A DNA stretch of 64,000 bases, from NCBI RefSeq assembly GCF_000315915.1, contig NC_020185.1:744001-808000 (forward strand), read 5' to 3'. Positions within the stretch are counted from its first letter, which is position 1. Each line of letters begins with the position of its first letter. This document shows positions 13,310 through 29,627 of the stretch, in pieces. The notes under the pieces are model-generated. The model had not been told where the DNA came from, made no database searches, and saw nothing but the letters and a program-made list of their open reading frames with translations. The DNA is from Henningerozyma blattae CBS 6284 (taxonomy: Eukaryota; Ascomycota; Saccharomycetes; Saccharomycetales; Saccharomycetaceae). The position numbers and the translations under genes are program-made.

Positions 13310-14534
13310 ATGTTTTGCTCAAGTTCTTTAAGACCTCTAAGAGGATCAATAACATCTGTTTATAGTAAGTAAAAACCCTTTTTTTATCCAATTTACTGAC
13401 GTTATTTTTTTGGACAATTTTACTAACCTATATAAACTTCAAATTGATTTTATCTTTTTTGCCATAGAAATATCTAAAATATCATCACATTCTGCAACAA
13501 AGTTACTAATAAAGCGAACTTTTGTTAACGGATCTTGGACAACATACAATAAATCGTACTCCAACTATAACAGCAGCAATAATAGCAATAGTAATGATGG
13601 CGGAAGTTCCAATTCAAATTACACACATCATCACCAATTACAAGACACCCCAAATAATACTTTTAGCTACAACACTTCCGTAGCTTATCAGCCAAAAGAT
13701 AGGGAAGATCAAATATACAAAAAACTTATAGCATCCAAGAAATCGCCAACTGGAGAAGATAACTTATTTATCAATTGTTCAAGTCTAAATGACGAGGTAT
13801 TTGCCGCAGTAGCAGATGGGGTTGGTGGATGGGCAGAATATGGGTTCGATTCTTCAGCTATATCAAGAGAATTGTGTGAAAACTTAAATGTATTTTCTAA
13901 TAGTTTTTTTCAATTACAAACCACAAATGCTGTGACAAAGGCACCTAAGGAACTATTGGATCTTGCATATTTAAAAACAAAGAAAGATGGAATTGTAGAG
14001 ATTGGCTCAACAACCGCACTAGTTGCTCATTTAGATCCAAAAGGGTGTCTACAAATCGCGAATTTAGGTGACTCTTGGTGTGGTGTGTTTAGAGATAACA
14101 AATTAATCTTTCAAACTGAAAATCAGCTATTAGGCTTTAATACACCATTCCAACTGTCAATTATTCCTGACTCTTTCCTGAAAGCCAGAAATCAAAATAA
14201 AAATTCTTATATCCAAAATTTGCCATCGGATGCAGATGAATATTCCTTTCAATTAAAACCTAACGATATTGTAATTTTGGCAACTGATGGGGTTACTGAC
14301 AATATTGCTACTGGTGACATTGAGCTGTACTTAAAAGACAATTACGACAATAAACAATTAAATAACAAAGAATTGCAAGATTTAACTTCGAAGCTGGTTC
14401 AGAATATCGTTAAAATTAGTAAAGATGAAAATTTCCCCAGCGTCTTTGCACAAGAATATACAAATTATACGGGTGTTCCCTGCAAAGGTGGTAAACAAGA
14501 TGATATAACAATGATCCTTATCAGAGTTAATTAA
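13310..14534 (+). CDS. PTC7: Mitochondrial PP2C-type phosphatase Ptc7, spliced (two exons)
   Basis: PPM-family Ser/Thr phosphatase; in yeast the spliced form enters mitochondria, where it activates Coq7 in ubiquinone synthesis. Exon 1 is 13310-13364 (18 codons plus one base, MFCSSSLRPLRGSITSVY), exon 2 is 13468-14534, and the spliced product is 373 residues. Exon 1 is Ser/Arg-rich, like a presequence. PP2C motifs are intact: ADGVGGWAEYG with metal-binding Asp, NLGDSWCGVFRDNKL, LATDGVTDNIATGDIELYL and GGKQDDITMILIRV. A Ser/Asn/His-rich insert follows exon 1. The intron is 103 bp and the exon 1 frame meets TAA at 13370-13372, so the membrane-anchored, intron-retaining isoform of S. cerevisiae cannot be made here. 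Confidence 0.93.
13365..13467 (+). other. PTC7: PTC7 intron
   Basis: 103-bp spliceosomal intron with 5' site GTAAGT, branch point TACTAAC at 13421-13427 and 3' site ATAG ending at 13467. Splicing joins a split Lys codon and restores the frame of the conserved exon 2. In the exon 2 frame the intron contains no stop over its whole length and encodes a hydrophobic stretch (FIFFAIEI) next to exon 2. Its length is not a multiple of three, however, so exon 1 reads into a TAA after two codons. Confidence 0.9.

Positions 14535-25793: not shown

Positions 25794-29627
<3,834 letters not shown>

Follow-up and report, generated by a model that had tools for sequence, protein, structure and literature searches.

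The PTC7 gene found in the window (the whole 64,000-nt stretch of DNA that was analysed) is almost certainly the spliced-only, mitochondrial member of the Tetrapisispora blattae PTC7a/PTC7b pair, which is ascribed to whole-genome duplication. In most relatives, a single PTC7 gene gives rise to both a mitochondrial phosphatase, when the intron is removed, and a membrane-anchored form, when the intron is kept and translated. For PTC7b, the joining of exons 1 and 2 would yield the mitochondrial form only, a 373-aa PP2C phosphatase with a basic N-terminus, and translation of an unspliced transcript would halt after 20 codons, while PTC7a would supply the membrane-anchored form from its one reading frame.

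The window protein is identical to the database entry TBLA_0A03190 of Henningerozyma blattae CBS 6284, the single species listed under its genus and one that we take to be the former Tetrapisispora blattae, in agreement with the TBLA locus prefix. The next in-frame ATG after the unspliced stop is at 14511, seven codons ahead of the TAA at 14532. In Marshall et al. 2013 (PMC3597508), T. blattae PTC7b is described as having a 103-nt intron, an unspliced product that stops after 20 amino acids, a next in-frame AUG 8 amino acids before the stop (close to the distance found here), and PTC7a as its helix-bearing partner; the case is repeated in a 2019 review (PMC6506691). The 103-nt intron, the 20-aa unspliced product, the late AUG and the mitochondrial-type N-terminus identify the two as the same gene. 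The window gene is T. blattae PTC7b, already published in 2013, and its recovery here is a rediscovery and not a further, similar case; an earlier note on this DNA had named T. blattae without recognising that the window comes from it.

Structure of PTC7b and closure of the retained-intron frame

The features of PTC7b and its partner are collected in Table 1. The 103-bp intron that the earlier note had proposed, and the exon limits on either side of it, were borne out. Exon 1 encodes MFCSSSLRPLRGSITSVY and the first base of codon 19, and its product appears to be mitochondrial presequence-like; residues 1-40 of the spliced protein carry a net charge of +7 and 0 acidic residues. In Pfam searches the protein scored above the cut-offs for PP2C (22.4 against 20.3 bits) and SpoIIE (41 against 25 bits), and its named database matches include PTC7 of Saccharomyces and of other Saccharomycetaceae. 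Scans of the window for tRNA and Rfam families returned no matches. The branch point motif TACTAAC occurs 8 times on the two strands of the whole window, against 7.19 expected in shuffles, and by arithmetic its chance occurrence in a given 103-nt, one-strand stretch is well under 1%. The terminal AG of the intron is the sole AG downstream of this motif.

Table 1. Features of PTC7b (window positions) and of PTC7a (locus positions).
Feature	Position	Strand	Remarks
PTC7b exon 1	13310..13364	+	55 nt, ends in phase 1; ATG at 13310
PTC7b intron	13365..13467	+	103 nt (3n+1), GTAAGT...TACTAAC...TAG
TAA ending the unspliced frame	13370..13372	+	shares its first base with the end of GTAAGT
Branch point TACTAAC	13421..13427	+	40 nt from there to the intron end
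3' splice site TAG	13465-13467	+	
PTC7b exon 2	13468..14534	+	PP2C phosphatase domain; stop TAA 14532-14534
PTC7a (TBLA_0H01920) reading frame	L003:4920-5924	minus	334 aa, starts MNMSIMRANSRYYIFSISFVVLIVTFLFSTVL

When unspliced PTC7b is read from the ATG, 20 codons are followed by the TAA that the earlier note had pointed out, and four more stops follow in the same frame within the intron (five in all, at 13370, 13397, 13424, 13433 and 13445). A dual-coding PTC7 intron of Saccharomycetaceae has a length that is a multiple of three, lacks stops in the exon 1 frame and encodes a helix; the PTC7b intron has 103 nt and five stops, and its hydropathy, described below, is low. To place the first intron codons among relatives, we used an N-terminal alignment of 40 hand-chosen proteins out of 141 fetched, together with the PTC7b intron peptide. 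Thirty of the 40 rows include both exon 1 and intron peptide; the excluded rows are the four focal proteins, five proteins that start at or after the intron point, and P0053, which looks spliced. The first whole intron codon is Met in 29 of these 30 rows and Lys, followed by Phe, in the remaining one (P0045), a count kept apart from a rule-based Met count over the 141 proteins, which mixes junction Met with other Met. The intron codons of the relatives were deduced from protein, a GTATGT site in phase 1 giving Met and GTAAGT giving Lys. Among proteins beyond the 40 rows, a comparable position is occupied by Thr in P0019 and by Lys in P0056 and P0062 (Hanseniaspora). The first whole intron codons of PTC7b are AAG (Lys) and then TAA. 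To judge from P0045, GTAAGT alone probably tolerates retention in a relative; the retained frame of PTC7b is shut by the next codon, TAA, and the 3n+1 length is a separate obstacle. Taken together, GTAAGT with its adjoining TAA, the 3n+1 length and the consensus branch point suggest that PTC7b is constitutively spliced.

As a separate observation on the same alignment, P0033, P0024, P0036, P0051 and perhaps P0032 start at the Met that the 5' splice site would encode (GT-ATG-T); translation of a membrane form lacking the presequence might begin at this ATG, or the start may only reflect the choice of the gene predictor.

The partner gene PTC7a and the sister regions

The earlier note had proposed looking elsewhere in the genome for another PTC7 copy that has the membrane helix but no splice signals, and such a gene, with no recognisable intron, was found. 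A search of the T. blattae genome with the exon 2 query gave 2 matches, the window gene itself and C8:454922-455758, the latter with 54% identity over residues 55-348 of the query. PTC7a and PTC7b are both PP2C phosphatases, with 51% identity over 304 aligned columns, and are duplicate partners. Unlike in PTC7b, an intron was not found in PTC7a and the N-terminal membrane helix lies in the sole frame: no open spliced model with an intron or upstream exon emerged between 900 nt upstream and 220 nt downstream of the ATG, in a scan that allowed the listed variant 5' sites and branch points only. As judged from its sequence, PTC7a thus has a predicted membrane helix and no recognisable intron, and the claim of the earlier note that the window gene would be the spliced-only copy of a divided pair holds at this level. 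Next to PTC7a, at L003:6620-7924 on the plus strand, there is a 434-aa open frame with Thr/Arg repeats.

The regions around the two genes share a second duplicate pair, by which they are recognised as sister regions: window 25794-29612 and L004:1696-6822, with 41% identity over 976 aligned columns and with GRAM and VASt domains, which we take to be a LAM4/YSP2-type pair. PTC7b is preceded by MRPL35 and followed by a MIF4G/Upf2 gene, UTP4, a kinase gene with a 2-5A-type RNase domain (IRE1-type) and the GRAM/VASt gene, and an oxysterol-binding gene is also among the neighbours on C1, the contig of the window; the genes flanking PTC7b match those around yeast YHR076W. The C8 neighbours of PTC7a are GPHR-type, FYVE/rabenosyn, condensin subunit, SKP1-type and NAD synthase genes, and we assume that the C1 and C8 neighbours interleave into one ancestral gene order as known from yeast. 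Synteny is likewise cited as support for the PTC7 duplication in the published account (PMC3597508).

An ortholog for each copy

The closest relative of PTC7b was P0002 (55%, among the best 120 of 831 matches) and that of PTC7a was P0080 (55%, among the best 120 of 745 matches); both come from the source 'lgn', on contigs of 36,347 and 30,047 nt, respectively. In two trees built from the phosphatase part alone, with 50 and 22 of the 141 proteins, P0002 grouped with PTC7b with support of 100/97 and 99/96, and P0080 grouped with PTC7a with 100/99 in both. P0080 has an acidic N-terminus and a helix, with a best hydropathy of 2.60. P0002 starts MFVPMALKPLRGPVNTTLCRISK, is continuous across the intron place, reaches a best hydropathy of 0.64 and has no intron peptide. 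A hydrophobic segment is present in 23 of the 24 other alignment rows that are lgn-only or lgn+ena, the exception being P0053; since lgn entries there are mostly unspliced frames, P0002 is probably a PTC7b ortholog whose gene has lost the intron. Beyond the 40 rows, lgn entries without a helix include P0018, P0034 and P0057. The spliced-looking P0053 lies on an lgn contig of at most 2.8 kb, which may derive from a transcript, or the entry may be a further case of intron loss; its N-terminus resembles that of P0060, which is related to P0047 of Zygosaccharomyces bailii. Spliced-looking lgn entries, as P0053 indicates, need not reflect genomic intron loss, and the contig of P0002 is a 36-kb one.

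Five constraints in all were compared by p-AU tests. A T. blattae-only duplication, with P0001 (PTC7b) and P0072 (PTC7a) held together, was rejected (p-AU 0.00016). The p-AU was 0.064 for all four copies as one clade, 0.0026 for the PTC7b pair with the Tetrapisispora phaffii protein and P0022, and 0.013 for the PTC7a pair with the same two proteins; holding both pairs together with these two was rejected at 0.023, perhaps owing to long branches. In the 50-protein tree both pairs fell near Nakaseomyces with weak support (92/71). Since the trees place the copies loosely, the case for an origin at the genome duplication is built on gene order and the published account.

P0002 and P0080 suggest another species with the divided pair. 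Since each copy has an ortholog showing the same division, the division may predate T. blattae. On balance we favour a course of events in which the division is older than T. blattae, PTC7a being membrane-only in both lineages (P0072 and P0080), and in which the relative's PTC7b lost its intron cleanly and T. blattae kept the intron but closed the frame by a stop, so that the loss of an isoform by either copy would have come first and the intron would then have been dispensable. No report of a second species with a divided PTC7 was seen in the titles and abstract openings covered, or in passages of PMC3597508, PMC6506691, PMC4202332, PMC3507789 and PMC12350175.

The open exon 2 frame and other explanations

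Read in the frame of exon 2, the PTC7b intron has 0 stops in 34 codons; this frame starts after a TAA at 13350, is open from 13353 onward and contains a single ATG, at 14511. The earlier note had read the open frame as the mark of a recent length or frame change, with a hydrophobic stretch still encoded. Under that explanation, an intron that was dual-coding until lately lost or gained one or two bases, so that the old helix frame now matches exon 2, and the 34 open codons and the length of 3n+1 are what it would predict. To ask how often such openness arises by chance, the intron was shuffled 20,000 times with dinucleotides kept, while its first six bases, TACTAAC and TAG were left in place. 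The exon 2 frame was open in 17.3% of the shuffles, and in 3,592 of 20,000 with another seed. The intron peptide alone has a best 19-residue mean Kyte-Doolittle hydropathy of 0.89, a value reached by 78% of the peptides from the open shuffles (n=3,592; mean hydropathy 1.22); flanked by four codons' worth of exon 1 and by residues of exon 2, it gives a best window of 1.37. A value of 1.6 is the usual mark of a helix, and the corresponding windows reach 2.58 in PTC7a and 2.75 in the T. phaffii protein. The absence of stops stands as the note described it, whereas the low hydropathy means that there is no recognisable membrane helix, and comparison by eye with the helices of relatives in the N-terminal alignment gave no clear correspondence. 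With openness and hydrophobicity both at chance level, the open exon 2 frame is no evidence of recency, although it may still be a relic. Further, the ortholog P0002 lacks any intron peptide, orthologs of both copies show the same division, and stops occur five times in the exon 1 frame; since the stop beside the 5' splice site and the length both close the frame, one such change does not suffice as an explanation. We thus consider a recent single frame change unlikely, and the claim of recency is not upheld.

Less likely again is that the non-3n length reflects a sequencing error. The T. blattae genome was obtained from Roche 454 reads, and its frameshift correction, according to the genome report (PMC3507789), inserted 398 and deleted 48 nucleotides. 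The intron contains two T7 runs, homopolymers in which the length may be off by one given 454 reads, and errors in introns would be expected to escape frame-based flagging. Both T7 runs come after the TAA at 13370, so the stop in the retained frame is independent of such errors, and the frame stays shut whatever the intron length. It is scarcely credible that retained RNA continues to yield a membrane form, whether through a non-AUG start or through a +1 frameshift into the frame of exon 2: that frame is open from 13353 and offers near-cognate codons (e.g. CTG 13356 and TTG 13410), but its first ATG comes only at 14511, its best hydrophobic window stays under the helix mark, and a helix-bearing partner gene is present. 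A spliced-only PTC7b beside a membrane-anchored PTC7a remains the reading that we retain.

Significance and comparison with other systems

T. blattae is the example of division between duplicates given by Marshall et al. (PMC3597508), and the window gene in itself adds little to it. What the present analysis adds to published PTC7b is the count of five stops, the chance tests and an ortholog for each copy. The orthologs P0002 and P0080 may be new but modest, with the division fixed in the relative by intron loss instead of by a stop; with an ortholog for each copy, a case known from one species would become a comparison, from which the order of isoform loss, stop and intron loss could be worked out.

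S. cerevisiae PTC7 (YHR076W), like PTC7b, encodes a PP2C phosphatase and has an intron near the N-terminus, and its spliced form is described as mitochondrial (PMC3597508, PMC6506691). Its intron has a length of 3n, is open and gives a retained form with a helix, whereas the PTC7b intron does none of these; the consensus branch point present in T. blattae PTC7b is said to be lacking in S. cerevisiae PTC7 in the review (PMC6506691). Marshall et al. state that they know of no S. cerevisiae gene other than PTC7 in which splicing or retention yields two functional products (PMC3597508). The yeast duplicates SKI7 and HBS1 resemble PTC7a and PTC7b in that two splice products are split between duplicate genes; they differ in that their alternative splicing goes beyond plain retention and in that their functions were tested by complementation (PMC3597508).
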